Source: Phycisphaeraceae bacterium
Lineage (GTDB): Bacteria > Planctomycetota > Phycisphaerae > Phycisphaerales > Phycisphaeraceae
Assembly: GCA_029260655.1 (NCBI GenBank)
Contig: JAJDCU010000022.1
Location: 1-46,429, forward strand
Length of the DNA: 46,429 nucleotides
Direction: 5' to 3'
Notes under the pieces: model-generated
Told to the model about the DNA's origin: nothing
What the model saw: the letters and a program-made list of their open reading frames with translations, nothing else
The model's database searches: none
Made by a program: the position numbers and the translations under genes
In this document: piece after piece, positions 2,024-35,388 of the stretch
How positions within the stretch are numbered: the first letter of the stretch is position 1
How the letters are laid out: each line of letters opens with the position of its first letter

Positions 2024-2498
2024 CTGGTTGGTCGGCCATCTCCTGGTCGGTACTTAGTCCCAAGGGCGATTGCGTGCTGGTCTGGGCGTAGAGAAGTTCG
2101 CGCAACCCAGCCACGCCGTCTTCGCTATCAGCAAGCCTGCTCAGCCCAGTTGACTCGGACGTGATATCGGCCCGCTTCAGGTCGAGCTTCAGCAGGTCCA
2201 CACACGCACGCCGGGCACTGTCCAGGCCGCCCTTGCTTTCGTCGACCGTGGCAGTAGCCAATTCGATCAGACGACCCGCGGCGACCATTCGGAAACGGCT
2301 TAACAAGATCTGTGTCTGGAGATCCGCGAGTACGCAGAGCCCGGCCAAACACCGGTGGTTGTTTTCATCCTGAATCCACTGTGCCAGGCTGTCCGGCGAA
2401 AGCGAATACTTTTCATGCAGCGCGGTAAGGTCAACATCCGAATTGATCAGGTCGCGAATTAAGGCGGCGCGTCGCTTGGCGCTGATCCGTCGGGCCAT
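2016..2498 (-). CDS. terS: Probable phage terminase small subunit
   Basis: 160 residues from the ATG at 2498, chosen because AGGAG lies about 7 bases upstream (complement of 2505-2509). An upstream in-frame start at 2531 adds 11 residues but lacks a better ribosome site. The N-terminus is basic and reads as a helix-turn-helix (about residues 5-45, MARRISAKRR then an SPDSLAQW-type helix), followed by a helical region, as in DNA-recognising small terminases. The assignment rests mainly on the position directly before terL with an 8-base overlap. An HTH regulator is the alternative. Confidence 0.65.
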   Translation of the reverse strand: MARRISAKRRAALIRDLINSDVDLTALHEKYSLSPDSLAQWIQDENNHRCLAGLCVLADLQTQILLSRFRMVAAGRLIELATATVDESKGGLDSARRACVDLLKLDLKRADITSESTGLSRLADSEDGVAGLRELLYAQTSTQSPLGLSTDQEMADQPDG

Positions 2499-2541
2499 GG
2501 AGATCTCCTGGGTAGTGGCGTGATACGCCACCTCTGGTAAG

Positions 2542-3177
2542 TCAGTTTGTGGATGGACTCTCTTGCAGTTGGCCGTGTAGGCTCAACAGCTTCATCAACG
2601 CCTGCTCGCGTGTACCACCGATCTCTTTCAGTGTTTTTTCGAGCCGGGCCTTGTGTTTGGGGAGGAGGAAGAAATGTACGACTAAGGGCATCTGTTCGAT
2701 CGGCTGTGGGGGGCGAATCTGCGGTGGTTTGGCGTTGATTTCCAGGAGCTTCTTGATTTGTTCGCGGCGCTCGGGAAGCATCCCGGCTATTGCCGAAAGA
2801 TTGTACGAACTGGCCAACGCCCCAACCAGCGCCGCACGCTTACGCGGGTCGTCCTGACCCTGAAGGCGGTTGAGGGTGGCCAGAAGGACCAATGCCTCCT
2901 GGTCATCCGCCTGCCACACGATGCAATCCGCGTGACGGCGATCCAGCTTGCGCAGCGCTTGTGCTCGGTGATGGCCATCAAGGATTTGATAGGTTTGTAG
3001 CGGTGCTGCCCCCTGGTCATGATCATTGCATAACGTGATAGGCCGGACAATCAGCGGGGGATATCTCGCGCTGGCGGCGATGTGATCGGCGAGTTTGGAC
3101 AGCAGGCGATCGGGCATAACGTTGCTGTTGGCAGGGTGCGGCATGAGCCTGTCGAGTTCAATCGCAAGGATGTTCAT
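2542..3177 (-). CDS. ParB/Srx-fold nuclease-like protein
   Basis: 211 residues. The N-terminal half has the ParB-like fold: a substrate loop (PPLIVRP) and ILDGHHRAQAL at about 66-76, equivalent to the ParB box II GERR/GHHR motif. The C-terminal half is helical and basic. ParB-like proteins of this size occur in phages and next to terminase genes, where they may act in DNA recognition, as CTP-dependent clamps or as nucleases; the exact role here is not known. It lies between the GNAT gene and terS, with gaps of 7 and about 43 bases, so it is probably cotranscribed. No parA is present, so a chromosome-partition role is unlikely. Confidence 0.75.
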   Translation of the reverse strand: MNILAIELDRLMPHPANSNVMPDRLLSKLADHIAASARYPPLIVRPITLCNDHDQGAAPLQTYQILDGHHRAQALRKLDRRHADCIVWQADDQEALVLLATLNRLQGQDDPRKRAALVGALASSYNLSAIAGMLPERREQIKKLLEINAKPPQIRPPQPIEQMPLVVHFFLLPKHKARLEKTLKEIGGTREQALMKLLSLHGQLQESPSTN

Positions 3178-3184
3178 TGGCGTC

Positions 3185-3994
3185 CTACGGATTCGGTGTA
3201 ATCGTGCCTGCGGCCAGATTGTCGTGCAGGTAATACACGGGTTCGAGCATCAGGCGCTCCCTGGCGATTCGAAGGTGTGTCAACGGATCGGTGCTATGTA
3301 TGGTGCTTCGCCCTCCGTTTTGGCGGTACCACCGATAGAGTTCCTTCAGCAGCCATCGTCGTTGAAGGCCGTCAAGCGCCTCGATCCTGGCCCATAACGC
3401 ATCGAGCGCAGCCAGATCACACGGCGTAAATCCCACTGACCGCATCGCGTCAACAAGACGCTGGTCGTATGCGTGTGGCGGCCTGCTGTAGGCGGTCATC
3501 CCCGCACGCTCGAAAAACGGGTTGACCCGTCCCATCGCCGCGAGGGCCTCGGTGTAAACAGTGGTGGGTTTCGCCAGCGCTGCGCGGACCAGCTGAACGG
3601 CCAAACCTAATCCACGCCACTGGGGGTGGACAACCACACGGCTGATCACGCGCACTTCACGGTTCAGAAGTTTTCCACGCTGAGCCGGGCACAACCAACT
3701 CCCGTACCGATCGTTCAGTGCCCAGTTTCGCATCCGGCAACTGAGGCTCGGAAGCGACTCCACCAGCACCGCCACCACCTGTGTTTTCGAGCGTTTGCTT
3801 AGAAACCGACCGACAGCCGACTCGCTGTTGCGCTTCAGTACCAGAACACGTGTGGCGGTTGCCGGCCTGCGTGCGCGGTAGTGATGCTCGCCGAGACTTG
3901 TGTAGTCGGCTGATGTGCCTTCTGCCAGCTCAAGGCCATCCACCAGCCCCAGCCCACGCGGGGCCTTGAAGCGATTCTGCAGCGGTGTCGACAT
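3185..3994 (-). CDS. GNAT-like acetyltransferase partner of the adjacent ABC ATPase
   Basis: 269 residues from the ATG at 3994; a TTG one codon earlier is possible. The stop of the ABC gene and this start overlap as TGATG, which implies translational coupling. The centre contains a GNAT-like acetyl-CoA loop (ISRVVVHPQWRGLGLA, about residues 112-127). The C-terminal third is helical, and its target is unknown. COG2401 describes proteins in which an ABC-type ATPase is fused to an acetyltransferase domain. Here the two halves look like separate, coupled genes. The role is unproven; the position upstream of terminase suggests phage-genome metabolism. Confidence 0.65.
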   Translation of the reverse strand: MSTPLQNRFKAPRGLGLVDGLELAEGTSADYTSLGEHHYRARRPATATRVLVLKRNSESAVGRFLSKRSKTQVVAVLVESLPSLSCRMRNWALNDRYGSWLCPAQRGKLLNREVRVISRVVVHPQWRGLGLAVQLVRAALAKPTTVYTEALAAMGRVNPFFERAGMTAYSRPPHAYDQRLVDAMRSVGFTPCDLAALDALWARIEALDGLQRRWLLKELYRWYRQNGGRSTIHSTDPLTHLRIARERLMLEPVYYLHDNLAAGTITPNP

Positions 3995-4668
3995 CAAGCG
4001 GGCCTCTCGACAACGTCGATCGATTCGCCCAGGTGCTTTTCGATGAGGACATCCGGATCAAGCGCCTCCAAGAGATCGTCGTGCGTGGTGGCTGCGATCA
4101 AGCACACACCCGAAGCGGTGACCCACCGGCGGACGTTCTGGGCGATGACCTTGGCGGTTACACGGTCCAGGGTGGCGCCGAACTCATCAGCGAGGACGAC
4201 CTTCAGCAGGCTGGGCATGATGTTCGATTCGACCATAGCCATCGTCTGCGCCAGTTTCAGACGGTAGCGCTGGCCGTCGGATAACTGCGACGGTTTACGC
4301 AGCATGACAAATGCGTCGTTAAGACCCGCCAGGCTTAACAGGCGCAGCGTCTGATCAAGCGTACGATTGGGGAAACAATCGACCAGCGGTAGGTCCGGGA
4401 TCGGTGGGAGCCGATCGAAGTTCAGCACATAGGCGTCATCGCGGTCACTGAGTTCTGTTTCGATCAGTCGGAGGATCGTGGACTTGCCGCTGCCGCTGGC
4501 CCCGGTGACGAAGACGAGTCGCCCGGCTCCTATGTCCACCTCGGTGGGGGGGATCAGCTTGATCTGCCGGTCCTGCTCAATCCCCAGCCCGAACATCCCG
4601 GCGACTTCAAGGACATTGGGCGATGCCTGAACCGCGGTGGGGACGGTGTGAGACAGCTTGATCCGCAT
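3994..4668 (-). CDS. ABC-type ATPase, soluble (COG2401-like half)
   Basis: 224 residues from the ATG at 4668, chosen because AGGAGT lies about 4-8 bases upstream (complement of 4672-4677). The longer frame to 4734 has no such site. It has Walker A GASGSGKST, a signature-like QLSDGQRYR and Walker B VVLADEFGATLD, followed by an H-loop-like ATTHDD. There is no transmembrane segment and no permease gene beside it, so it is not a transporter. Coupling to the GNAT gene and the position in a packaging operon favour a DNA-associated role like other soluble ABC ATPases, but this is inference. Confidence 0.75.
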   Translation of the reverse strand: MRIKLSHTVPTAVQASPNVLEVAGMFGLGIEQDRQIKLIPPTEVDIGAGRLVFVTGASGSGKSTILRLIETELSDRDDAYVLNFDRLPPIPDLPLVDCFPNRTLDQTLRLLSLAGLNDAFVMLRKPSQLSDGQRYRLKLAQTMAMVESNIMPSLLKVVLADEFGATLDRVTAKVIAQNVRRWVTASGVCLIAATTHDDLLEALDPDVLIEKHLGESIDVVERPA

Positions 4669-4779
4669 AGACACTCCTGAAATATTCAATAAACGCTGAA
4701 GTCTGAGCTCAGGCTGAGCGATGGGCTTTATCACGTATCTGCCCCCGACCTCTCGGGTCAGTCAGAGGCTGGACCGTGT

Positions 4780-5196
4780 CTAAGAAAACAGTCTTGCCGT
4801 CACATGAACCGTGTTCATGTGCTGGCGTGTCCTATGAAGAGATTGGCCTGAGATCTCGGCCGTATCCCGGAGGCTCAGACCGTGGAGGACCACGAGCCTG
4901 GCTGTAAGCCGAACATCGCTTGGCAAAGCGTCTGCGCGGACCGCGACAAACTTAAACAGTTGTTGCGACAGACGTTTAAGTATTGCTCCCGCCCGCCGCT
5001 GCAGACATCGAGCGGGCCTGCGAGACATCCTGGCGATCTTCGCGATCGGCTGGCCGTTGAGAAGCACCTGCTCGATGAGCATCCGGTCGGCATCGGGCAG
5101 GTACTCGGCCAACAACAGCAACTCATCGATCCGCTGGCGATTCAACTGCCGTCGTTGAATCGCCAATGTGGAAATCTTCTCCAAAACGTCAGGCAT
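4780..5196 (-). CDS. Two-HTH regulator resembling sigma factor region 4
   Basis: 138 residues from the ATG at 5196 (MPDVLEKI). The frame extends to 5349, but that extension crosses the transposon end at 5244 and cannot be original. Two helix-turn-helix blocks are visible: one around residues 40-75 (LNGQPIAKIARMSRRPARCLQRR, close to sigma-70 region 4), and a second at the C-terminus (LHGLSLRDTAEISGQSLHRTRQH). No region 2 is present, so it is not a complete sigma factor. It is the first gene of the packaging operon and a likely regulator of it. Its promoter has been split by the transposon. Confidence 0.6.
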   Translation of the reverse strand: MPDVLEKISTLAIQRRQLNRQRIDELLLLAEYLPDADRMLIEQVLLNGQPIAKIARMSRRPARCLQRRAGAILKRLSQQLFKFVAVRADALPSDVRLTARLVVLHGLSLRDTAEISGQSLHRTRQHMNTVHVTARLFS

Positions 5197-5233
5197 GAGG
5201 TTGCACCCGGTTAATGTATGGTATATGTTAGGT

Positions 5234-5239
5234 ATTAGA
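5234..5239 (-). promoter_or_regulatory. -10 element of the interrupted packaging-operon promoter
   Basis: On the minus strand these bases read TCTAAT, 5 of 6 matches to TATAAT, placed about 37 bases before the ATG at 5196. The sequence now at the right distance for a -35 belongs to the transposon end (CTCAAA) and fits poorly. If the transposon and one target copy are removed, TTGACA from 8863-8868 lies exactly 17 bases upstream. Confidence 0.55.
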
Positions 5240-5243
5240 CCGC
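5236..5243. repeat. Target site duplication, left copy
   Basis: TAGACCGC directly abuts the left inverted repeat and is repeated in the same orientation at 8842-8849. Eight bases is within the range made by IS1-family transposases. Confidence 0.9.
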
Positions 5244-5261
5244 GGTAGTGGTTCACTTTGA
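5244..5261 (+). repeat. Left terminal inverted repeat of the transposon
   Basis: GGTAGTGGTTCACTTTGA. It is the exact reverse complement of 8824-8841, 18 of 18 bases. It starts with GGT as IS1 ends do. Confidence 0.92.
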
Positions 5262-5342
5262 GAAATGCCCCGATTGGATCGGATTTTCCCTTGCATCCGT
5301 TTATCCGGATGGTAGGATAGATTGGCCGAGGTCGGATTATGT

Positions 5343-5371
5343 TTGGCAATCCAACCTGCCGATACTATGAT
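5343..5371 (+). promoter_or_regulatory. Promoter of the antitoxin-toxin pair
   Basis: TTGGCA (5343-5348), a 17-bp spacer, then TATGAT (5366-5371); each box matches the housekeeping sigma consensus at 5 of 6 positions. A start site near 5378 would leave a leader of about 28 bases before the ATG at 5406. The promoter lies inside the transposon, so the cargo is independently expressed. Confidence 0.55.
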
Positions 5372-5405
5372 TAATAAAGTACTTGACACATGGGGGGAAG
5401 CATTT

Positions 5406-5966
5406 ATGAGCGCATTTGATCCAATCAAGACCACGCAAGCGGCTGGATTACTAATCTCGCTTCATGGTGGCAACATAACTAGGTTGAGGCTCTTAAAACT
5501 TCTCTACATCGCAGACAGGGAATGCTTGGCCGAAACGCTTAGGCCCATCACGTGGGACTCTGCCGTTGCAATGGACAATGGTCCGGTGTTGTCCAACACA
5601 TACGACCTAATCAAAGGAACGGGGCCATCTGGCGGCGACTGGGATCGCCACATACGAGCCTTGGGCTCGCGGTGCATGACGCTGGTTTCAGATGCCGACG
5701 TAGACCGCCTATCCCGACACGAAATGAACAAACTAAGGGATGTTGCCAAGCGATTTGACGAGTTAGATGACTATGAGCTTGCCGACTATACACATGATTT
5801 CCAAGAGTGGATACAGAACAAGCCTGACAAGGGAACTTGCAACCCAATTTCATTTGACGACCGTTTGGCGGGCGCTGGCCTTGGCGATGATGAAAAACAG
5901 CGAATCATTCGTGACCGCACCGAGGATATTGCGTTTGCGCAAATGATCCAAGAGGTGCGCGCATAG
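5406..5966 (+). CDS. Panacea-domain (SocA/DUF4065-like) antitoxin
   Basis: 186 residues from the ATG at 5406, with a GGGGGAAG ribosome site just upstream; the longer frame from 5322 overlaps the promoter. The N-terminus shows the Panacea pattern: a helix with LLKLLYIADRECLAE, then a WDSAVAMDNGPVLSNTYDLI segment (Gly-Pro-Val before the next helix). Panacea domains occur in antitoxins that neutralise many unrelated toxin folds. The charged C-terminal extension (about residues 120-186) may contact the partner. The next gene starts directly after the TAG stop with no gap, as in two-gene toxin-antitoxin operons. Confidence 0.75.
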   Translation: MSAFDPIKTTQAAGLLISLHGGNITRLRLLKLLYIADRECLAETLRPITWDSAVAMDNGPVLSNTYDLIKGTGPSGGDWDRHIRALGSRCMTLVSDADVDRLSRHEMNKLRDVAKRFDELDDYELADYTHDFQEWIQNKPDKGTCNPISFDDRLAGAGLGDDEKQRIIRDRTEDIAFAQMIQEVRA

Positions 5967-6374
5967 ATGAAGTCTGGGGACACTTTTATACTGCCCAAAT
6001 CAGCCGAAGCCCACACTTGGTTTGTCATATCAGATACGGCCAATCATCCTGACACGGTCCTATGCGTTAATGTGACCTCAAAAGATCGGTTTTCCGATAC
6101 GGCTTGTGTCTTGAATGCCGGGGACCACCCAATCGTAAAGCACCCGTCATCTATAAATTATGACCGCGCTAAGATAGCCACGCTAGAAGAGTGGGATAAA
6201 CTTGAGAAGGCCGGTTTTATAAAATTGTTACAGCCTGTATCACGTGAAGTTTTGCAAGAGATCCGCGATGGCGCGGGCAGATCGGCCCGTATCAGCAACG
6301 GCGACCTTCAAATACTGCAAGAACAGGGTGTTCTCACTAGGCGCGAAGAAGATGACAGCTCTGATCCAATGTGA
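5967..6374 (+). CDS. Probable toxin partner of the Panacea antitoxin
   Basis: 135 residues, beginning at the base after the antitoxin stop. The N-terminus (KSGDTFILP, then HTWFVISD, VLCVNVTS and ACVLNAGDHPIVKHPSSINYDRA) has the look of a small beta-barrel of the MazF/PemK type: a short Gly-Asp loop, a hydrophobic strand with His-x-Trp, and a later basic loop with His and Ser. This would suggest an RNA-cleaving toxin, but the fold is inferred from pattern only, and no catalytic residue can be confirmed. The C-terminal 50 residues are helical and charged. Gene order and AT-rich composition support a pair with the upstream gene. Confidence 0.55.
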   Translation: MKSGDTFILPKSAEAHTWFVISDTANHPDTVLCVNVTSKDRFSDTACVLNAGDHPIVKHPSSINYDRAKIATLEEWDKLEKAGFIKLLQPVSREVLQEIRDGAGRSARISNGDLQILQEQGVLTRREEDDSSDPM

Positions 6375-6379
6375 GGATA

Positions 6380-7264
6380 TTAGCCTTGTGATGGCAGATA
6401 ATCAGTAATCCGACCACCAATCCGGGATTCTTCTTCCTCAATCATCTTCACCAGATCAAGCATCGTCCAGGCACGGTTAGCGATCCCCGATGCCACGGCT
6501 GGGGTCGTCTTGAGGGTCATGTGCTTGCGTATGAAGTTGTAGTGGACGAAATGCAGCGCTACGGCGTGGGCGTGGTTATCGAATCGCTTACTAAATGCGT
6601 TGGTTAGCCGCGTGAAGCGCCGCATCCCCATGCGCATCGTGAGGTTTTGCCGCTCGACATAGCTTGTATTGATATGCGTGGGGTTCGGCTTGCCCGTGAT
6701 GGGCTTGGGCTCAGCGCCTTGGCACTCGCCGGGGCTGTACCGGGCTTCCGGCCCCTTGTTACCCCTAGGCTTGCTGTACAGTTTGATGAGCTGCGCGTAA
6801 TCCACGTTGCCGCCAAATGCCCGCTCTACAGCATCCAAGTAGACCTGCCAGCCATCGCTGGTAAGTTGTACCCGGTTCTCAAGCCGATCCGCCATATCCT
6901 TGACGAACTCCCGGCCGTACTCGGAATCCCGGCCCCCCATCGTCCAGTTGATGATTAGTTTGCTGTCGGCGTCGATACTGACCCACGTCCAGACATCCCC
7001 GTGGCCCTTGCCCCAATTAGCGGGCTTCACATTCCGGGCCTTGGAGTGACAAAATGACCATATCTCATCGACCTGGACCCGCTTGGTGGGCAGGTTGCGG
7101 ACGAATAGGTCGTGGAATTGGGCGCAGAACGTCCCAGCGTCTGCCAAGAGCCTCAAAACGGTGATCTTGGAGCATCCGCACATGCGGGCGGTGGCGTTGA
7201 TGCTACTGCCTTCCACCAAAGCGTTTAGGATTAACGCCCGCTTCTCAGTACTTAGCTTTCTCAT
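6380..7264 (-). CDS. IS1-family transposase (DDE)
   Basis: 294 residues in a single reading frame, with no programmed frameshift visible. It starts with an HTH (EGSSINATARMCGCSKITVLRLL, about 14-36). The catalytic core follows: VDEIWSF (first Asp), TSDGWQVYLDA (second Asp), and SYVERQNLTMRMGMRRFTR with the catalytic Glu, a signature shared by single-ORF members of the IS1 group. It lies in the centre of the 5244-8841 element rather than next to an end. The stop is only 5 bases from the toxin stop, so the two genes converge. Confidence 0.88.
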   Translation of the reverse strand: MRKLSTEKRALILNALVEGSSINATARMCGCSKITVLRLLADAGTFCAQFHDLFVRNLPTKRVQVDEIWSFCHSKARNVKPANWGKGHGDVWTWVSIDADSKLIINWTMGGRDSEYGREFVKDMADRLENRVQLTSDGWQVYLDAVERAFGGNVDYAQLIKLYSKPRGNKGPEARYSPGECQGAEPKPITGKPNPTHINTSYVERQNLTMRMGMRRFTRLTNAFSKRFDNHAHAVALHFVHYNFIRKHMTLKTTPAVASGIANRAWTMLDLVKMIEEEESRIGGRITDYLPSQG

Positions 7265-7291
7265 GATCGAACTCCGATATTACTATTTAAT

Positions 7292-7320
7292 ACAATATCA
7301 AATTTCGATTTGAAAGTCAA
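7292..7320 (-). promoter_or_regulatory. Possible transposase promoter
   Basis: On the minus strand, TTGACT (7320-7315), a 17-bp spacer and TATTGT (7297-7292). It overlaps the oppositely directed fic promoter, so the two may interfere. The -10 is weak (4 of 6). Confidence 0.35.
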
Positions 7321-7337
7321 GTCAATTTATGTATAAT
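7310..7337 (+). promoter_or_regulatory. Promoter of the Fic gene
   Basis: TTGAAA (7310-7315), a 16-bp spacer and a perfect TATAAT (7332-7337), 31 bases before the ATG at 7369. AGGAG at 7358-7362 is a good ribosome site. Confidence 0.6.
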
Positions 7338-7368
7338 GTCGATATTGGGAATAAGCTAGGAGCAAAAA

Positions 7369-8574
7369 ATGGATTACGAAGCATTCCGAAATAGCGTTTG
7401 CCCGGGAAAACTTGAAGCAACAGTATTCACCGAAAAGCGGTTCTCGGGAGGCTCAGTAGCTTATACAGATGTCTCTGGCTACGGCTTTGTGCCGGACGAT
7501 CTTCCTCCATCTCTAGATCTGGGACAACTTTTAATTGAAACCCAAGCGGCAATATTGGAGGCCGAGCGCAACCTAACACAGCTTGACACGATTGCGCGTG
7601 ATCTTGAAAACCCCTACATGCTGATCGGTCCGTTTATCACAAGAGAGGCGAAGCTATCATCAGCCATTGAGAACACCTTTGCGTCAGCCAAGCAAATTGC
7701 TCTGTTTGACTCAGACCCATCGGCTGTTGAAACAGAAAACCGGCAGGAAGTACAAGAGGTTAGAAATTACGTTCAAGCGATGAATCACGGCTATAAATCC
7801 AACCTGCCAATCAGCCCACGTTTGGTATTGGAGATGCACAAAATACTGCTGACGGATGTTAGGCGGGATGCGGGTGTGCCTGGAAAGTTTAGAACAACGC
7901 AAAACGCCATAGGTAATCGCTCAACTAGTTTTGAGGATGCGAAATTTGTCCCTACGCCGCCCCGGTTCATTGACGATAGCATTAGCGCTCTCATGAAGTT
8001 CATTCATGATACGGAGAGCGAGATTCCTAGATTGATACGTTTTGCACTTTCTCACTATCAGTTTGAGTGTATACACCCATTCGATGATGGAAATGGTCGC
8101 TTGGGCCGGTTATTGGTATCGCTCCAGTTGTGTAGCCAGGCCCAGCTTGCAGCGCCGCTGGTTTACGTCAGCGGATTCTTTGAACAGCACCGAGAGAGCT
8201 ATTACAGCCTGCTATACAATGTGAGCGCTAAGGGAGAATGGATGCCTTGGGTAAACTTTTTCCTTTCTGCAATAGCAACTCAGGCGGACGACGCTTTTGA
8301 TCGTGCGCGGCGATTACTCCAACTGCGCCAAAAATACCTTGATGCTGTGCGAGAAAAACGCGCATCGGCATTACTGCCAAAATTGGTGGATAGATTATTT
8401 GAGCATCCGGCGATGACCGTATCTATGGCTTCTATGCTCACAGAAACCACCCCGCAAACTGCTGGAAAGCTAGTACAAAAATTGTGCGAAAAGAAAATAC
8501 TGTCTGAAGTGACCGGCAGAAAGAGCCACCGGGTGTATATTGCGCCCGAAATTCTCGAGGCAATCGAATCCTAA
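7369..8574 (+). CDS. Fic-domain adenylyltransferase with built-in inhibitory helix
   Basis: 401 residues. Fic proteins transfer AMP (or related groups) from nucleotides to target hydroxyls. The complete catalytic loop HPFDDGNGRLGR is at about 236-247, with the essential His and the Arg-finger. The N-terminal domain carries the inhibitory motif (S/T)xxxE(G/N) as SSAIEN at about 97-102, which marks a self-inhibited, class II-type Fic that needs no separate antitoxin. The C-terminal 70-80 residues read as a winged helix (MTVSMASMLTETTPQTAGKLVQKL). It is transposon cargo with its own promoter. The target is unknown; stress response, addiction or defence are all possible. Confidence 0.88.
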   Translation: MDYEAFRNSVCPGKLEATVFTEKRFSGGSVAYTDVSGYGFVPDDLPPSLDLGQLLIETQAAILEAERNLTQLDTIARDLENPYMLIGPFITREAKLSSAIENTFASAKQIALFDSDPSAVETENRQEVQEVRNYVQAMNHGYKSNLPISPRLVLEMHKILLTDVRRDAGVPGKFRTTQNAIGNRSTSFEDAKFVPTPPRFIDDSISALMKFIHDTESEIPRLIRFALSHYQFECIHPFDDGNGRLGRLLVSLQLCSQAQLAAPLVYVSGFFEQHRESYYSLLYNVSAKGEWMPWVNFFLSAIATQADDAFDRARRLLQLRQKYLDAVREKRASALLPKLVDRLFEHPAMTVSMASMLTETTPQTAGKLVQKLCEKKILSEVTGRKSHRVYIAPEILEAIES

Positions 8575-8580
8575 GATCGA

Positions 8581-8775
8581 CTACCGCCGCCCAGACGCCC
8601 GCCCCGCCTCAAAAGCAGCCCTAAGCAGCGTCATCCCCCGTTCATCCACGTTCTGGATGCTCTTCGACCACTCCTCCCAGGCCGATTCCAGGTCTGCCGG
8701 GAGGGGTTTGTCCGCGCCAGTCGCCTCACCGGCGATCCGGGCGGCATTCACGTTGGGGTCTGATTGGCTTTCCAT
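8581..8775 (-). CDS. Small hypothetical protein at the transposon right end
   Basis: 64 residues, charged and mostly helical, with an AWEEWSKSI segment and an ERGMTLLRAAFEAGRASG tail. It faces fic with a 6-base gap and is more GC-rich than the other cargo. The amphipathic pattern is protein-like rather than random, but no family is recognised. It lies within the inverted repeats and is therefore part of the mobile element. Confidence 0.45.
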   Translation of the reverse strand: MESQSDPNVNAARIAGEATGADKPLPADLESAWEEWSKSIQNVDERGMTLLRAAFEAGRASGRR

Positions 8776-8823
8776 GCCCCTATTGTACGCCCGGGAGCCC
8801 CGGCCTTAAAGACCTCCCCAGAA

Positions 8824-8841
8824 TCAAAGTGAACCACTACC
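8824..8841 (-). repeat. Right terminal inverted repeat of the transposon
   Basis: TCAAAGTGAACCACTACC on the plus strand, an exact inverse of 5244-5261. Confidence 0.92.
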
Positions 8842-8849
8842 TAGACCGC
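8842..8849. repeat. Target site duplication, right copy
   Basis: TAGACCGC, identical and in the same orientation as 5236-5243, directly outside the right inverted repeat. Confidence 0.9.
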
Positions 8850-8852
8850 ATC

Positions 8853-8881
8853 TTGATACAAGTGTCAAGGGTTAGTTCAAT
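8853..8881 (+). promoter_or_regulatory. Possible promoter of the LexA-like repressor
   Basis: TTGATA (8853-8858), a 17-bp spacer and TTCAAT (8876-8881, 4 of 6). The -10 overlaps the inverted repeat at 8874-8893, which fits autorepression. GAGG at 8901-8904 precedes the ATG at 8910. Confidence 0.4.
8863..8868 (-). promoter_or_regulatory. -35 element stranded from the packaging-operon promoter
   Basis: On the minus strand this is a perfect TTGACA. In the present sequence it is followed by the transposon and has no -10. Without the transposon and one target copy, TCTAAT (5234-5239) lies exactly 17 bases downstream. Confidence 0.55.
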
Positions 8882-8893
8882 AAACAGTGAACT
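8874..8893. promoter_or_regulatory. Likely operator of the LexA-like repressor
   Basis: Inverted repeat AGTTCA, 8 bases, TGAACT. It covers the proposed repressor -10 and lies 5 bases upstream of the stranded -35 of the divergent packaging promoter. This is a position from which a bound dimer could repress its own gene and affect the other promoter. Confidence 0.5.
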
Positions 8894-8909
8894 TCTTTTT
8901 GAGGCCAGA

Positions 8910-9764
8910 ATGCAGACGGTGGGACAGATCATCCGGGAACACAGGCTCGGGCTGGGGCTGACGTTGTCGGCGCTTGCTCAGTCGGTGGGGGTTGCCAAGA
9001 GCTACCTTTCGATGATCGAGAACCATCGGGTGGTGAACCCGCCGTCCGGAGAGTTGCTTGTGGCGATGGAGCGGGCGCTTGAGATCGAGAGTGGTCAATT
9101 GAGTTTGGCCGGGGACTGGGCGCGTGCGCCCCAAGCGGTGCGTGAGCAGGTCCAGCGTTTGTCCGGGGACGCCGAACGTGGCCGAGAGCTGGCCCGGTTC
9201 CTCAAGGAGGCGGCCACGGCTTCTGGCGGAGCTGGCGGGGGGAACCTGGATGATTTGTATCGCAGCGGTCAACTCCGAAGACGGATCGAGCAGGCGCTGG
9301 GGCCGGTGGAGGGGTCGTCTGACGACCAAGCCGCCGTGAACGCCGTGGCGGCCGAGACTCCGCCGTTGTATCGCATCCCACTGATCAACAAGGTGGCCGC
9401 GGGATATCCCACAGGTTTCACCGATCTGGACTATCCAGCCCGGGTCGCTGACAGCTACCTCAGCTGCCCGGGCTTGAACGACCCCGACGCTTTCGCAGCG
9501 ACCGTGGTTGGCGACTCGATGATGCCGGACTACCGCGAGGGGGATATCGTGGTTTTCTCCCCTGCGGCGGATGTCGGCGATGGCTGCGATTGTTTTGTGA
9601 GGCTTGAACCGGATCATGAAACGACTTTCAAACGTGTTTTTTTTGACGAGGGGGGTGCGGTGGTCCGTATGCAGCCGTTGAACCCGCAGTTTCCACCGAC
9701 GCTGCGGGCCCGCGAGCAGGTCGCTGGCCTGTACCGCGCGGTCTGGCGGTATTCGAAACTGTGA
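8910..9764 (+). CDS. XRE-HTH / S24 peptidase repressor, LexA/CI-like
   Basis: 284 residues from the ATG at 8910 (MQTVGQIIRE), after a GAGG site. An open frame back to 8829 crosses the transposon end and is not original. The N-terminal XRE helix-turn-helix (about 4-60, TLSALAQSVGVAKSYLSMIEN) binds DNA. A linker leads to a C-terminal S24 domain with an Ala-Gly cleavage site (VAAGYP, A164-G165), the catalytic Ser (GDSMMP, S203) and Lys (TFKRVF, K241). The self-cleavage apparatus is therefore intact, and DNA damage through RecA is the expected inducer. It was originally directly divergent from the packaging operon, as with phage repressors; a general host regulator is the alternative. Confidence 0.88.
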   Translation: MQTVGQIIREHRLGLGLTLSALAQSVGVAKSYLSMIENHRVVNPPSGELLVAMERALEIESGQLSLAGDWARAPQAVREQVQRLSGDAERGRELARFLKEAATASGGAGGGNLDDLYRSGQLRRRIEQALGPVEGSSDDQAAVNAVAAETPPLYRIPLINKVAAGYPTGFTDLDYPARVADSYLSCPGLNDPDAFAATVVGDSMMPDYREGDIVVFSPAADVGDGCDCFVRLEPDHETTFKRVFFDEGGAVVRMQPLNPQFPPTLRAREQVAGLYRAVWRYSKL

Positions 9765-28698: not shown

Positions 28699-30306
28699 TT
28701 ACTCGATCGGTTCGATCCCCAGGTCTTTGACTTTCTTGTTCAGTGTGTTGCGGTTGATCCCCAGGAAGTCGGCGGTACGGACTTTCACACCACTGTTGTA
28801 ATCGAGGGATTCACGGATCAGTTGCCTTTCAACTTCCCCGATCACCAGATCGTAGACCCGGCCCTCGCATGACTGGTATTCTTTGACGGCGTGTTCGGCG
28901 AGCCGTGCCGCTAGAGACTCGATCGATGTGTCGGTCGCGTCGCTGCGGGTCTGCTTGGAGAACAGCCCGATCTGAAGCGGCAGCAGATCAACGGTAAACT
29001 CATCGCCTGTTGAAAGCACGACCGCCCGCTCCATAGCGTTCTCCAGCTCGCGTACATTGCCCGGCCAAGGGTAGCGAAGAAGCGTGTTCAGAACATCTCG
29101 GCTGATCTTGCGCAAGCTGCGCTGGTTCTCCTTGTTGTATTTATCCAGGAAGAAGTCGATCAACCTGGGGATGTCTTCCCGGCGTTTGCGCAATGGCGGG
29201 AGATTGATCTGGACCACGTTCAGGCGGTAATACAGGTCCTCTCGGAAGTTACCCTTCCTGACTTCTTCCTCCAAGTCCAGGTTGGTCGCCGCAATGACCC
29301 GGGCGTCGACTTTGATCGTTTGGTGGTCGCCGACACGCTCAAACTCTCGCTCCTGCAACACGCGCAGCAACTTGACCTGAAGTTGGGGGTCTAGCGTTCC
29401 AACTTCGTCCAGGAACAGCGTGCCGCCCTCCGCGGCTTCGAACCGGCCGACCTTGTCTCTGACGGCCCCGGTAAACGCGCCCTTGACATGGCCAAACAGT
29501 TCCGACTCCAGTAGCTGTGGTGACAGTGCGCCGCAGTTGACTCGGATCAACGGCTTGTCGACTCTGGGGGAGTTGTAGTGGATCGCCTTGGCGATAAGCT
29601 CTTTACCGCAACCGGTTTCGCCCAGCAGAAGCACGGTAGCGCGGCTACTGGCGACCTGACCGATGGTGGCCAGCACGTCCAGCATCACCGGACTCGAGCC
29701 AATAATGTTGTCAAACCGATACTTGCCTCGGAGGTTGTCTCTGAGCAACCGCGTCTCTTGCAGCCAGTGGTCCTTTTCCACCTGGATCAGATGATGGATG
29801 CGGATCGTCTGCGCGATAGACCCTGCGATAATCGTCAACAGCCGGGCGTCGGCCTGTAGCTGAGCATCGTCTATGTAGGGCTTGTCGATACCGATGGCCC
29901 CGACCGTCCGGCCCCCATCGTGTACGGGCACACAGATAAAGCTCGTCGGCGTGGGGGCTTCACCGGCTTCATCCAAATCTCGGCTGCGGGTGCGGTTTAA
30001 AAACGCGGGGTGCTTGGCGATGTCTTGAATCACTGCGGCTTTCCCGGTCTCCAAGACCTGACCCGTCACGCCTTCACCCGCCGCATATCGCCCACGCTGC
30101 TGTTCAGCAGCACTGAGTCCAACGCTGGCGATGATGCGCAGCTGGTCAGTCGCTTCGTCCCATAAAACCAGTGATGCACGTTGGATATGTAAGCGATCAC
30201 GAAGCTGAGCCATGGCGCGTTGAAAGACCTGGCTCAATTCAAGCCCATCGCCAAGAATTTGGCTGATCTGCTCAAGGATGTCTAATTCTCGTTCAGCTTG
30301 ACTCAC
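28699..30306 (-). CDS. GAF-domain sigma-54-dependent activator
   Basis: 535 residues. An N-terminal GAF sensor (about 20-175) is followed by an AAA+ domain with Walker [11 protein letters not shown] (228-236), the sigma-54 contact loop GAFTGA (276-281), and Walker [12 protein letters not shown], then a Fis-type HTH (about 500-530, [21 protein letters not shown]). This is the NifA-like layout, but no nitrogen fixation gene is near, so the ligand and target are open. It is divergent from the portal locus with 267 bases between; no clear -24/-12 promoter was found there. Confidence 0.9.
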
Positions 30307-30573: not shown

Positions 30574-31449
30574 ATGTTCACCATGACGACCCACGCAACC
30601 AATCAACAAGCCCTGACCACGATCGAGCCAAGCCTGCTGGACCTGCTCCTCGAGGAGCACCGCAGTGAAACCGAACCCAAACTCCGTCGCCTGTGGGATT
30701 ACTACCGCAACCCGACCAGGCGTCATGCTTCTGGCCGTCGCGGTCGTTTGGCGCAGGAGGACGGACTGCCTACGCGCTTGACCAACTCCAATTCAAACAG
30801 TCAAGCCGACAAAGAGATCGTCATCGAGAACGATATCGCCTGGCGGATGAACACCATTGTCAACTTCATGTTCGGTAAGCCGCTGGCGATCCAGAGCACG
30901 GCCAAGAACCCCGAGCGGGCTGGAATCATCCAGCGGTTTTTACACGACGTGTTCAAGGCCAACGGCGGCGACCGCTTCTTCCAGGACCTGGGACTGCTCG
31001 GGTCTGTTTACGGCTACGTGGATATCCTGCTCCGCGTTTCCGATCAGCCCGAGCTTCTCGGGAGCAAGCATGTACAACACTCGGCCCAGCGGTTTGTCCT
31101 TGAAACCGTCGAAGCCCCACGGGCGATCCCCCTTCTTAGCCAGCATGACTACCGTCGACTCGATGCCTACGCCCTGCACTTCCGCCAGAGAACTTCACAG
31201 GTCGAACAAAGCCACTTCCTCTCACGGGTTCGCAACCGCGTTCTCGGCGGGGCGGGGCGTAGGCAACGGACGGTAATTGAACATACGCAGGTCTGGACCC
31301 CCGATAGGTTCCACAGCTATACGAGCAAGCCCGGCTCCCTCGGCGGGGGGCGGACGCTCGTTGAAGAAAGCGTCAACCCGCTCGGTCGGATCCCGGTCGT
31401 TCATATCCAGAACCTCTCGCAGCCGTTCTTTTACGAAGGGCTACCTTGA
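30574..31449 (+). CDS. Phage portal protein, C-terminally truncated
   Basis: 291 residues; an ATG three codons later is also possible. It has the pattern of SPP1-type portals: an N-terminal helical segment, KEIVIENDIAWRMNTIVNFMFGKPL, a conserved GSVYGYVDILLRV strand, and IPVVHIQNLSQPFFYEGL. Family members continue beyond this point for another 150-250 residues forming the stem and crown, but here a TGA stops the frame at 31447. The following 530 bases encode a different protein in another frame. A portal of this length would not be expected to form a channel. Confidence 0.7.
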   Translation: MFTMTTHATNQQALTTIEPSLLDLLLEEHRSETEPKLRRLWDYYRNPTRRHASGRRGRLAQEDGLPTRLTNSNSNSQADKEIVIENDIAWRMNTIVNFMFGKPLAIQSTAKNPERAGIIQRFLHDVFKANGGDRFFQDLGLLGSVYGYVDILLRVSDQPELLGSKHVQHSAQRFVLETVEAPRAIPLLSQHDYRRLDAYALHFRQRTSQVEQSHFLSRVRNRVLGGAGRRQRTVIEHTQVWTPDRFHSYTSKPGSLGGGRTLVEESVNPLGRIPVVHIQNLSQPFFYEGLP

Positions 31450-31972
31450 CCCGCCGACACTCCCGCCGGCGTTCCTTGCTGCGGCGAAGGCTGGCTCAGC
31501 GCGTGTGCGTGTGACCGCCAGCCTGATGAGCCCGCACCGGGTTGAATTGCAGCGGTGGCGTGGTAATGCCTTTACCGGCAAACTTCCGCCTCGCGTGGCC
31601 GATCTGGCGGGGGTCTTCCGCTTCCAACGGGTAGACGAAAAGAGCATCCACCAGGCGAAGATTCTGACCGGTGAGCTTCAGGCGGACGAGTTGGATCAAA
31701 CCAATCAGATGCTCGCCTGGCTGATCGAAAGAATGATGCGGCACGAGCAGGGCGGTGAGCCTAATGACGGACGGGCGACATTGGAACTGGCCGGCTCCTG
31801 GCCTCTGCTGAGGCCAGGCGACAGGTTGTTTGAAGTCCGTGGCGCGGGGATCGGGGTGGGTGGTCGGGCGCAAGCGTTGACCCGCCGTGCCGCCCACATC
31901 CGATCGGTCGAGACACGGTTTGCGCCGCGCCACGGCAAAGGCCTGACGACAACCGCAGAGTTGTCTTTCTAA
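31442..31972 (+). pseudogene. C-terminal fragment of a phage tail/baseplate-like protein
   Basis: About 177 residues without their own start, in the frame one step from the truncated portal. The end (SWPLLRPGDRLFEV then a glycine-rich turn, RSVETRF, TTTAELSF) reads like the beta-rich end of a baseplate hub or late-control type tail protein. The middle is helical (ELDQTNQMLAWLIERMMRHEQ). It begins directly where the portal stops. The simplest explanation is an internal deletion joining two genes; a single-base frameshift in one gene is less likely because portals do not end in such a domain. Confidence 0.55.
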
Positions 31973-31992: not shown

Positions 31993-32265
31993 ATGCCGGC
32001 CGAACTATTTCAGTACCTGACTCAATTCGGGGTTGCCGGGCTTATGGGTCTGCTGTGGGTCTGGGAACGTTTTATGTCTCGTAAGCGTGAGGCCCAACTC
32101 AATGAGACCCATCGCCACCTGACGGATCAGCAGCAGGAACTGCGTGTGCTGGTCAAACTTGTTCGCCAAAACACCCGTGCGATGGTCCGGTTCGACCAGA
32201 CACAGACCCAGCTCAAAGAACTCCTGGAGAAGATGCATCATGAGATCGACAGACGCGCCGTGTAG
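31993..32265 (+). CDS. Small membrane protein with coiled coil, phage-associated
   Basis: 90 residues. One N-terminal membrane helix (FGVAGLMGLLWVWERFM, about 10-28) is followed by a basic patch and a long coiled-coil tail (ETHRHLTDQQQELRVLVKLV). The layout matches many small phage proteins near lysis genes, but it is too unspecific to name. The stop overlaps the start of the lipoprotein gene. Confidence 0.6.
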   Translation: MPAELFQYLTQFGVAGLMGLLWVWERFMSRKREAQLNETHRHLTDQQQELRVLVKLVRQNTRAMVRFDQTQTQLKELLEKMHHEIDRRAV

Positions 32266-32725
32266 CCGTTTCATGTCACGAATCGCTGTGGTGACGGCGC
32301 TGCTGATCGGTGGCTGTACGTCTCCCCCGTCGGTTACGCCGCTATTGAGGATCAGCTCGCAAGCGCTGACCCGTGAGGCCGCCCGGCTTGACGAGGACGC
32401 CACCCGTGACGCCCAGCATGTCCGTCAGTCACTGAGCCTGCTTGATAACGCCTTCGATCAAGACCTTGACCAAACCGACACCTTGACCCCCGACTGGGTT
32501 CGTGAGGCAACGAGGGTATACATCGCGGCGCGTGAGGCATTGGTGCTTCACGGGCAAGCGCTGACTGCCGAGCGAAGGGCCCGGGCGGACAACCTCCATG
32601 CCGCGGCGTCGGCCACTCGGCGCGCTATCGAGTTAATCGAACAACAAGACAGATTGCTGAACGGCGTTGCTGGCGGCGATGTTCGCCGTCTGCTCACCGG
32701 CCAGCCATTAACCGATCAGGAGTAG
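32240..32725 (+). CDS. Small lipoprotein, helical
   Basis: 161 residues from the ATG at 32240 (GGAGA about 11 bases upstream); an ATG at 32273 is the other choice. The signal ends in the lipobox LIGGC, giving a lipid-modified Cys. The mature part is a long helical region (LTREAARLDEDATRDAQHVRQSL). It overlaps the previous gene by 26 bases, so it belongs to the same transcript. A two-component spanin-like role with the upstream membrane protein is possible but unproven. Confidence 0.55.
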   Translation: MRSTDAPCSRFMSRIAVVTALLIGGCTSPPSVTPLLRISSQALTREAARLDEDATRDAQHVRQSLSLLDNAFDQDLDQTDTLTPDWVREATRVYIAAREALVLHGQALTAERRARADNLHAAASATRRAIELIEQQDRLLNGVAGGDVRRLLTGQPLTDQE

Positions 32726-32730
32726 ACCCC

Positions 32731-32988
32731 GTGACCACAGAAGATTTACGAAGCATGGTCAGCGACAAGATCAATGGCCGTTGGTCGAAATGGGCCCAGA
32801 GACACCCCCACCTGGCGCAGGTCATCGACCACACACGCCTGGTGGAATCAGCGGTCGAACGCTTGCGGGATGACCCACGATTCATTCGGGCGATGCAGGA
32901 GGCGGACCTCGACGACGCCAGGCTTTCGGCCGCCGCCAAGATTCTTGAGAGAGCCGATCAGGTTATCCGCGATACGCTACCGCTGTGA
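32731..32988 (+). CDS. Small helical hypothetical protein
   Basis: 85 residues from a GTG at 32731, 5 bases after the lipoprotein stop. The sequence is soluble and amphipathic (VESAVERLRDDPRFIRAMQEADLDDARLS, then AAAKILERADQVIRDTL). Operon position is the main reason to believe it. Confidence 0.55.
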   Translation: MTTEDLRSMVSDKINGRWSKWAQRHPHLAQVIDHTRLVESAVERLRDDPRFIRAMQEADLDDARLSAAAKILERADQVIRDTLPL

Positions 32989-33058: not shown

Positions 33059-33304
33059 ATGCAGGAAACACCCGCCCCGCGATCGCGTTGGGCAAGCCGT
33101 AAGTTCATCGTAGCTGTGTCAGCCCAGATCACCGCCCTGATCGTGCTGATGTGGCCCGGGCAAGAACACGAGATCATAGAGGCATCCAGATCGATCACAT
33201 CGCTTGTGGTGGTGTTGGCGACCTCGTTGGGTTACATCGTGGCAGAAGCGTCGATCGACGCCCGTAAGGCGTCAGCGGACTCGGGCCAGGACGCTCAACC
33301 TTGA
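33059..33304 (+). CDS. Holin-like small membrane protein
   Basis: 81 residues from the ATG at 33059, with AAGGA upstream. A basic start (RSRWASRKF) precedes two hydrophobic helices (about 13-31 and 44-62) and a charged tail, the common class II holin layout. The last base of its stop is the first base of the next start (TGATG), so translation is coupled. No endolysin gene is nearby. Confidence 0.55.
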   Translation: MQETPAPRSRWASRKFIVAVSAQITALIVLMWPGQEHEIIEASRSITSLVVVLATSLGYIVAEASIDARKASADSGQDAQP

Positions 33305-33879
33305 TGATTGGCCCCGGTCGGTCTATCTTCTCAACCGTGACCCTGACACGCGGGCTACATCTTGTGAGGCGGATGATGGCAGGCGCCTCGGTGGTGCTTT
33401 GCCTTTGGCTGCTCTCTGGCTGTGAGTTCAAGGCCGTCGAGCCGACGACAACTGTTCAGCGGGCAGACTCCGTTGACAGCTATTGGCGGCCCGCACCGGT
33501 CAGGATCCGCGTCTACCCGTCTACTCAGTTCATTAAGGAGTCCGGGCGTGCGATTTTGGAAGCTCGGGTTGAACTGTTTGATGAAATGGGCGACCCGGTC
33601 AAGTACGCCGGCAGTTTCAGGGTCGAACTGTATAGCGTCGACGAAGCCATGGGAAATGCGCCGCGCCGCCTGTTGTATACCTGGGATGCCCAAGTGATGA
33701 CACTCGAACATCAGCGGGAACATTACGACCCGATCACACGGGGGTATCTGTTCCGCCTGGGTGTGGATGACCTGCGAATCGCTAAACAGGCCTCCTTGTT
33801 GCGTATTACGTTCACACCGGTCGATCGGCCTCGCTTCGACGCGGAGTCGGTGATCCGGTCTGACTGGTTATCGCAGTGA
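33304..33879 (+). CDS. Lipoprotein with a beta-sandwich-like domain
   Basis: 191 residues from the ATG at 33304. A 40-residue leader ends in LLSGC (lipobox). The mature part has alternating strands (RIRVYPSTQFIKESGRAILEARVELFDEMGDPVKYAGSFRVELY, later LLRITFTPVDRPRFDAESVI), as in an Ig- or C2-like sandwich. Coupled to the holin-like gene by TGATG. It could be a host lipoprotein captured in the operon. Confidence 0.6.
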   Translation: MIGPGRSIFSTVTLTRGLHLVRRMMAGASVVLCLWLLSGCEFKAVEPTTTVQRADSVDSYWRPAPVRIRVYPSTQFIKESGRAILEARVELFDEMGDPVKYAGSFRVELYSVDEAMGNAPRRLLYTWDAQVMTLEHQREHYDPITRGYLFRLGVDDLRIAKQASLLRITFTPVDRPRFDAESVIRSDWLSQ

Positions 33880-33918: not shown

Positions 33919-35286
33919 TCAAGCCAGGCCGAGCACACTGCGCACCTCATTGACGAGCGATTGAGCCTGTTCTTCCTGCGCGGCTTCGGCGATGATCCGA
34001 ATGATCGGTTCGGTATTGCTTGGCCGGACATGGACCCAACGATCGGGCCAATCGACGCGCATACCGTCTTGCGTGTCGAGTTTCTGGTCGATGTACTTCT
34101 CTTTGAGTTTCTCCCCGATCTGATCCAGTAGCGACTGGCTGACCGCTGCCTTGTCTTTGACGATGGCATAGGCGGGGGTCTGCTTGACCAAACCACTTAG
34201 AGGCAAGTCCCGCTTGGCGAGCATCTCCAACATCAGCGCCATGCCGACCAGGCTGTCACGGACGCCGCAGACCTTGGGCCAGATCACCCCGCCGTTGCCT
34301 TCCCCGCCAAGGGCCGCCTGTTGTTGCGTCATAACCGAGGCGACATTGGCCTCGCCCACCGGTGTCCGCAGGACCGAGGCGCCTGCTTTCTCGGCGATGT
34401 CATCGACCATCCGGCTGGTGGAGAGGTTGGTCACAACCTTGTCGCCCGAGCCCAGCAGGTGCATCGCCGACAGAGCGAGCGTGTACTCCTCACCGATGTA
34501 CACACCTTGCTCATCCACCACCGCGAGGCGGTCCGCGTCCGGGTCCTGGGCGAACCCGATGGCTGCGCCGTGTTGTTTTACTTTGTCGCACAACTCGGTC
34601 AGGTTTTCCCGTGTCGGCTCGGGTGTATGCGGGAACAATCCGGTCGGCTCGGGGTACATATGGATCAACTCGACGCCGAGATTCTCCAGCAGCGCCCGCG
34701 CTTCTTCGCCGCCCGCCCCGTTAACGCTGTCCACAACCGCCTTGAGCTTTGCAGCGCGGATCGAATCGACATCGACATGCGGAAGGATCCGGTTAAGGTG
34801 GACCTGCACGCCGGTCATGTCCTCTTCGCAGGGCTGCAGCGCGTCGACTCCGAGGTAATCGATGTCATCTGATTTGAATCGTTCGATGATTTGTCTGGCC
34901 TGGTCCGCGGGGGGCGCGGCGCCGTCGTGCCGAAGCGCCTTGATCCCGTTCCAAATGATCGGGTTGTGGCTGGCGGTGATGACCATGCCGCCGTCGGCCT
35001 GGTGGTGCCCGGCCATGATCGCCACACCGGGGGTGCTCAGCACACCCAGCCGAGTAACCCGGCACCCCGCCGCGATCAGCCCTGAAGCGGCGGCCATTTC
35101 GAACATCTGCCCCGACGGGCGCGAATCCCGGCCAAGCACCACGTGCGGCGACCGGCCGGAGATCGACTGACGCAGCCAGCTGCCGAAAGCCGCCGCGAAT
35201 CGGGCCGCCACCGGGGGTGTCAGCGATTGGCCTACCAGGCCCCGCATCCCGCTGACACTCAACATCAAGGGCGATTCGTTATTCAT
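33919..35286 (-). CDS. glmM: Phosphoglucosamine mutase / phosphohexomutase
   Basis: 455 residues from the ATG at 35286 (MNNESPLMLSVSGMRG); the frame is open to 35367. The four site motifs are present: TASHNP with the phosphoserine (about S106), the metal loop DPDADR, the sugar loop GEGNGG, and the phosphate loop RPSNTEP. GEGNGG is closer to archaeal-type phosphohexomutases than to the E. coli GlmM loop, so phosphoglucomutase or phosphomannomutase activity is possible. Supplying GlcN-1-P for peptidoglycan would fit the neighbourhood. Confidence 0.85.
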   Translation of the reverse strand: MNNESPLMLSVSGMRGLVGQSLTPPVAARFAAAFGSWLRQSISGRSPHVVLGRDSRPSGQMFEMAAASGLIAAGCRVTRLGVLSTPGVAIMAGHHQADGGMVITASHNPIIWNGIKALRHDGAAPPADQARQIIERFKSDDIDYLGVDALQPCEEDMTGVQVHLNRILPHVDVDSIRAAKLKAVVDSVNGAGGEEARALLENLGVELIHMYPEPTGLFPHTPEPTRENLTELCDKVKQHGAAIGFAQDPDADRLAVVDEQGVYIGEEYTLALSAMHLLGSGDKVVTNLSTSRMVDDIAEKAGASVLRTPVGEANVASVMTQQQAALGGEGNGGVIWPKVCGVRDSLVGMALMLEMLAKRDLPLSGLVKQTPAYAIVKDKAAVSQSLLDQIGEKLKEKYIDQKLDTQDGMRVDWPDRWVHVRPSNTEPIIRIIAEAAQEEQAQSLVNEVRSVLGLA

Positions 35287-35388
35287 TGCATCCCATCTCG
35301 ATGGCTCGTGCTCTTGCACACAATCCGCTTGACCGGCGTACATGACCGATCGTGATGGCCCGGTCATGGATCCTACCGCGTCTACACA

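Follow-up and report, generated by a model that had tools for sequence, protein, structure and literature searches.

Gene transfer agents (GTAs) of the RcGTA type, known from Alphaproteobacteria, occupy more than one locus, as does the Phycisphaerae system described here, and encapsulins have a shell protein of the HK97 type. Few GTAs are known experimentally outside Alphaproteobacteria; excerpts of one review (PMC11841831) name verified GTAs in Alphaproteobacteria, Brachyspira, Desulfovibrio, and Methanococcus, and the title of a reference cited there describes VSH-1 of Brachyspira as a divided GTA genome, with its genes over separate loci. Putative GTAs with a PF05065 capsid appear in the partial text of PMC8346489, and in that of PMC7947584 the terminase of a prophage in Zavarzinella formosa lies near RcGTA-like terminases. 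Here, we analyzed a stretch of 46,429 nucleotides from a Phycisphaeraceae bacterium (assembly GCA_029260655.1, contig JAJDCU010000022.1), referred to as the window, in which a broken gene copy exposes a likely unreported system that would pack DNA into virus-like particles.

Like RcGTA, this system has a vertically inherited, phage-derived head-tail cluster with a terminase, but it differs in its other genes, in the LexA-like repressor beside the terminase, and in the occurrence of tail-less variants. Since its capsid belongs to the SU10_MCP family, and not to the PF05065 type (partial text of PMC8346489), the system is not RcGTA-like. The division of genes over separate loci is shared with VSH-1, but the phylum is different, and the likeness is one of locus arrangement. 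As in encapsulins, a phage-capsid-derived shell protein is kept by the hosts; unlike in encapsulins, the capsid adjoins portal and scaffold genes and co-occurs with a terminase, which argues for DNA packaging rather than enzyme cargo. The Zavarzinella formosa case, the one planctomycete example encountered, shares the planctomycete host and a terminase near the GTA theme, but, as described in the partial text of PMC7947584, it is a predicted intact prophage, and it belongs to another class. Among the literature matches listed, with subscription papers and preprints mostly outside the scope, we found no Phycisphaerae GTA or domesticated phage; the two-locus system is likely unreported and a candidate new GTA family of Phycisphaerae.

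In the window, two stumps of structural genes meet at a junction (Table 1). An earlier note on this DNA had read the first frame as a portal gene ending right after a conserved segment and the second, with its stop at 31972, as the C-terminal end of a different structural protein, and both readings stand. The 291-aa frame matches Pfam SPP1_portal (E 1e-9, profile positions 4 to 195 of 416) and the portal family PHROG 64 (E 9.4e-12), and it ends directly after VHIQNLSQPFFYEGL, a segment conserved in relatives. The second frame matches residues 416 to 591 of a 591-aa protein in G005, a genome of the same genus (E 3e-65, 61% identity). An AlphaFold model of this full partner protein (26 sequences; mean pLDDT, 83.7; pTM, 0.57) resembles PDB structures of tail and baseplate hub proteins, with a best E of 4.5e-9 and 40 chains at E ≤ 0.001, including VgrG, Mu gp44, T4 gp27, and hubs of contractile injection systems. 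By predicted fold, the partner of the portal stump is a tail or baseplate hub, so the label of a tail-protein end was right. Portal homology extends through GGGCTA and hub homology begins at TAC, so that few bases are common to both sides of the junction.

Table 1. Features of the two loci and their surroundings in the window
Feature	Coordinates	Strand	Observation
Terminase large subunit TerL, intact	482..2023	-	Terminase_6C E 8e-10, PHROG 2 and others; motifs kept
Candidate terminase small subunit	2016..2531	-	Adjoins TerL in most loci; no family match
ParB-like protein	2542..3177	-	PHROG 723 E 5e-9; syntenic
GNAT-type protein of phage family PHROG 886	3185..3997	-	E 6.6e-14; syntenic
ABC-class ATPase of phage family PHROG 293	3994..4734	-	E 1.1e-27; syntenic
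Small HTH/sigma-like gene heading the module	4780..5349	-	Weak PHROG 11138 match, E 3e-4; conserved position
Transposon, about 3.6 kb	5244..8841	.	18-bp inverted ends; 8-bp flanking repeats TAGACCGC
LexA/CI-like repressor (HTH + S24 peptidase)	8829..9764	+	Peptidase_S24 E 2.5e-14; Ala-Gly site, Ser, Lys; likely start near 8910
Left flank, GAF/sigma-54 activator gene	28699..30306	-	Also kept in genomes without the operon
Truncated portal protein	30574..31449	+	291 aa; about 495 aa in G005
Deletion junction	31440..31445	.	Homology on either side
Tail hub protein, C-terminal 176 residues	31442..31972	+	Homology to G005 protein; hub fold predicted
90-aa membrane/coiled-coil protein c13	31993..32265	+	Weak spanin-like match, PHROG 89 E 1e-4; adjoins operon in relatives
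Putative lipoprotein c18	32240..32725	+	Lipobox by eye; homologues in same place
85-aa protein	32731..32988	+	Homologues in same place
79- to 81-aa membrane protein	33059..33304	+	Resembles a holin in position alone; PHROG holin match not significant (E 0.095)
Lipoprotein c8	33361..33879	+	Stays at site even where operon is otherwise gone
Right flank, presumed phosphohexomutase-like gene	33919..35367	-	Same neighbor in 18 genomes of families f1 and f6, window included

Because neither frame is interrupted by a stop on its side of the junction and the stumps seem to remain under constraint, they might be read as one functional gene, a frameshifted portal-hub fusion. This is highly improbable, since its parts come from genes 8 to 9 kb apart in relatives and the two-frame arrangement, which the earlier note had named as refuting its reading if seen in homologues as one functional gene, occurs at none of the examined loci of other portal-bearing genomes.

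Relatives with the full region, for which that note had proposed to look, do exist. The operon is complete on one contig in two genomes of the same genus, G004 and G005, and in pieces with the same flanking genes in two more (two contigs in G003 and three in G001). Its order in G005 is portal, scaffold-like gene, SU10-type major capsid, g4, g5, g6, g7, a LamG-domain protein, a 714-residue protein, hub, and the small genes still present in the window, all between the sigma-54 activator gene on the left and, on the right, the gene that we take to be phosphohexomutase-like, as in the window. The major capsid protein matches Pfam at E 7e-87, with PF17236 (SU10_MCP) as the sole family at E ≤ 1; matches of the scaffold-like protein to PHROGs are weak, that of the 714-residue protein to TIGR03790 is below threshold, and the fold model of g4 (pLDDT, 93) has no PDB match at E ≤ 0.001. 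Portal and hub lie 8 to 9 kb apart in the same-genus relatives, with scaffold, capsid, and tail genes between them, and the window lacks any counterpart to about 9.0 kb of G005 and about 8.3 kb of G004. Searches of the window's own assembly (83 contigs; genome 95% complete) returned no match to the capsid or the 714-aa gene and nothing of the hub beyond the piece at the junction.

Since the assembly contains neither the capsid nor the rest of the hub, the best reading is the one that the earlier note had offered, an internal deletion of capsid and tail genes, here in an operon domesticated over the long term; we give it a probability of about 0.8, the junction being known from the assembled contig alone. 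If about 8 to 9 kb was deleted from this vertically inherited structural operon of phage origin, the loss would have included 40% of the portal at its C terminus, the scaffold and capsid genes, the following head and tail genes, and the first 415 residues of the hub, and the junction would be the scar where the two stumps were joined in different frames. Taken by itself, the junction is a case of ordinary decay by deletion, and, judging from the genes lost, heads can presumably no longer be made in this genome. The further claim that only the two ends of the operon are left was right for the stumps and too narrow for the rest, as five small downstream genes and a terminase module about 25 kb upstream also remain.

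An assembly or binning artefact would produce the same picture if the true ends of an intact operon had been joined and the middle 8 to 9 kb dropped. Loss of the operon's middle in this way does occur, for in G002, of the same genus (79% complete), a portal piece of 228 aa and a hub piece of 61 aa both end at contig ends; with no capsid match either, that genome cannot arbitrate the deletion question. The stumps in the window also carry no clear mark of decay. However, the join lies inside one contig, with the genes in the right order and orientation and no repeat at the junction, the missing genes are on none of the contigs by the searches made, and related losses are seen in other genomes, which makes an artefact quite improbable. 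Clear relaxation of selection on the stumps was not seen in the portal piece (218 codons, synonymous sites near saturation), and this counts against our best explanation. The ratio of dN between G000 and G003 to dN between G003 and G005 is 1.5 for the portal piece versus 1.9 and 2.1 for the two flanks, and dN/dS of the piece is 0.18 to 0.22 in pairs with the window versus 0.12 to 0.15 in other pairs. As the piece shows no clear acceleration over the flanks, the deletion either happened recently on this branch or, with lower probability, is an artefact.

Mapping the operon across relatives, we found portal matches in 38 of 61 genomes (own included), capsid matches, some partial, in 36 (own not included), and hub matches in 21, or 20 by profile with one of them weak. 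A capsid profile matches 92 of 198 genomes of the class, a few weakly or partially, and 23 of 148 of the phylum, where six strong matches lie outside the class. A scan of named genomes gave 287 stretches coding for a relative, and the best 80 of the 287 bear planctomycete names except one, titled Vicinamibacteraceae. Viral contigs gave nine matches, three at about 60% identity, and of these L154 alone shows the surrounding operon. In the phage collection, the nearest portal is 23% identical over 80% of its length.

To the left of the portal, 17 genomes of family f1 have the sigma-54 gene, and the presumed mutase gene is shared on the right (Table 1); these flanks were not seen in families f2, f4, and f5, which counts against our best explanation. 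No conserved sigma-54 promoter was found between the activator gene and the portal in 16 loci, which also counts against our best explanation, and we claim no regulatory link between the two. For 26 genomes from five families, a tree built on portal and capsid together follows the RpoB tree (Mantel r = 0.852, none of 2,000 permutations as high, 13 of 23 splits common), and so does the portal alone (r = 0.875, 12 splits). The capsid alone agrees less well (r = 0.568, 9 of 23 splits), another point against our best explanation. Values of dN/dS in same-genus pairs are 0.036 to 0.073 for the capsid, 0.074 to 0.101 for the portal, 0.127 to 0.152 for the hub, and 0.036 to 0.20 overall where computable, synonymous sites being near saturation and some pairs not computable; these values place the operon under purifying selection.

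Portal, capsid, terminase, and hub are all phage families, as they would be in the ordinary remnant of a recently integrated prophage. Such an origin is very hard to reconcile with an operon that sits at the same site in many genomes of the family, agrees with the RpoB tree, is spread class-wide under purifying selection, and has its nearest free-phage capsid in the phage collection at 31% identity; the sporadic, host-independent distribution of a prophage was not what we found. Thus, with the portal in 38 of 61 genomes, a tree that follows RpoB, and purifying selection, the operon is not an ordinary prophage; on sequence evidence, it is a vertically inherited, phage-derived cluster preserved by many relatives.

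The second locus pairs the terminase module with the repressor. TerL was found first by PHROG 2 and then by a profile of its own family; PF03237 alone misses it, matching 17 of 61 genomes with the window's own not among them. The acidic residues that we take to be of Walker type and nuclease type are invariant in 17 TerL sequences, window included. At E below 1e-50, 40 of 61 genomes match the TerL-family profile; 37 of these also have the portal, and 20 genomes have neither (Fisher p 5.5e-12, relatedness of genomes ignored); in many relatives, terminase and portal share a contig. Two kinds of exception count against our best explanation: G009 has the portal without a TerL of this family, and the terminase is present in G023, G027, and G057, where neither portal nor capsid gave a match. 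Among 20 loci chosen by terminase match, all six module genes are found in 15, in the same order in 14, and the ParB gene is missing in four, three of which also lack the small-subunit candidate; the G049 copy is broken, and some terminase genes are split. In L105 and L144, from other lineages, no more than 7 kb separates module genes from the portal. The small-subunit candidate has no family match in Pfam, PHROGs, or NCBIfam. Small terminase subunits without a detectable DNA-binding domain are a GTA trend according to the excerpts of PMC11841831, and an HTH-like stretch seen by eye in the candidate would argue against its fitting that trend. PADLOC matches to the module genes are all weak. 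No self-mobility genes (integrase or replication) occur among the operon and module genes scanned. A fragment at positions 3 to 431, FHA-like by eye, adjoins the terminase and is 81 to 84% identical and adjacent in all five same-genus genomes.

In 19 of 20 loci, the module is adjoined by a repressor that combines an HTH with an S24 peptidase domain. Its Ala-Gly site and Ser are present in 20 of 20 aligned sequences, window included, and its Lys in 19, the remaining one being cut by a contig end. Within the genus, ATGTTAGGTATTA is conserved in the gap between repressor and module. As a shared operator, no convincing common word was found between this gap and the portal upstream region in 17 genomes, which counts against our best explanation. 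Elsewhere the gap is about 0.1 to 0.4 kb (16 relatives measured), versus the transposon of about 3.6 kb that occupies it in the window. The inner 16-bp ends of the transposon lie at 5246 and 8839, the 18-bp ends and 8-bp repeats having been extended by eye, and its cargo is a Fic gene plus an IS1-like transposase. The likely true start of the HTH/sigma-like gene is near 5196, since the transposon begins at about 5244. The terminase and repressor of the window still look intact.

From its genes, we tentatively propose that the intact system could be a GTA. Phage-derived head and tail genes (portal, capsid, and hub) are present in intact relatives, a terminase is available for packaging at a separate locus, inheritance with the host is vertical, more weakly for the capsid alone, and selection is purifying, with dS near saturation. 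The system would comprise a terminase module beside a LexA/CI-like repressor and a separate head-tail operon, at a distance of about 25 kb in this genus. On DNA damage, the repressor would cleave itself, heads of portal, scaffold, and capsid would assemble, the terminase would fill them with DNA, hub and tail proteins would then be added, and small membrane proteins and lipoproteins may help release the particles. The particles, the packaging of host DNA, SOS induction, repressor control of the distant operon, and release are all steps that we infer. The whole would amount to an ancient two-locus Phycisphaerae GTA, in a phylum for which we came across no described GTA, with a LexA-like repressor switch, tail-less lineages with DNA-packaging heads, and serine-recombinase satellite-like elements in the capsid gene, the window being a recent capsid loss with motor and repressor apparently intact, a picture to which we assign somewhat less than an even chance. 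A class-wide candidate in Planctomycetota with a recognizable terminase and repressor provides a concrete gene set testable in cultured species.

The distribution of the hub is uneven. It has no match in 19 of 36 capsid-bearing genomes, including all six of family f2 and all six of f5 in the set, and, at the inspected loci of f2, f5, and G010, the head genes are followed by ones that, by the names we presume for them, do not look phage-like. Both observations favor a head-only device (for example, for DNA or cargo storage or for defense) in which the tail is dispensable and which is not a GTA. We regard this as unlikely, since purifying selection maintains the hub and the other tail genes in the genomes that have them and the hub-less genomes, some of which lie on short contigs, may hold tail genes of another family elsewhere.

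Deletion and loss recur among relatives. G031 has an independent internal deletion that removes the capsid from residue 50 plus g4, g5, and g6, together with a stop in the terminase. Among 12 loci around the sigma-54 gene fetched from genomes without a portal match, four (G008, G020, G035, and G036) show a near-empty site, with the last lipoprotein 124 to 323 bp from the sigma-54 gene; two hold other genes between the sigma-54 gene and the lipoprotein, and six, some on short contigs, have no such lipoprotein in the stretch. Loss of the system can thus be followed stepwise, from the intact state (G004 and G005) through hub-less genomes and capsid deletion (window and G031) to terminase without portal and the near-empty site.

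In several genomes, satellite-like elements seem to use the capsid gene as an attachment site. This gene is interrupted at codons 58 to 62 in five genomes of four families (f1 twice, f6, f59, and f3), at loci L024 (G012), L049/L050 (G026), L034/L060 (G049), L211 (G197), and L210 (G305), and at about codon 322 in a sixth, of family f9 (L212 in G330). The interrupting elements carry a related large serine recombinase, and five of the six have a gpT-type capsid gene. In G026 the capsid halves are on two contigs, and in G049 the region is also rearranged. In G046, the portal is split near residue 322 to 325, with about 67 kb between the halves (contig C1, about 3226100 to 3294750). Elsewhere in the window, an 832-aa gene at 38586 to 41084, for which PADLOC gave weak matches only, contains 5.9 copies of a 132-bp (44-codon) repeat at 40094 to 40869 with 84% matches. 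Capsid relatives also occur in other classes of the phylum, at loci L216 to L220 (G076, G093, G121, G133, and G143), where the operon's portal profile found nothing; in L220, a partial terminase-profile match lies nearby.
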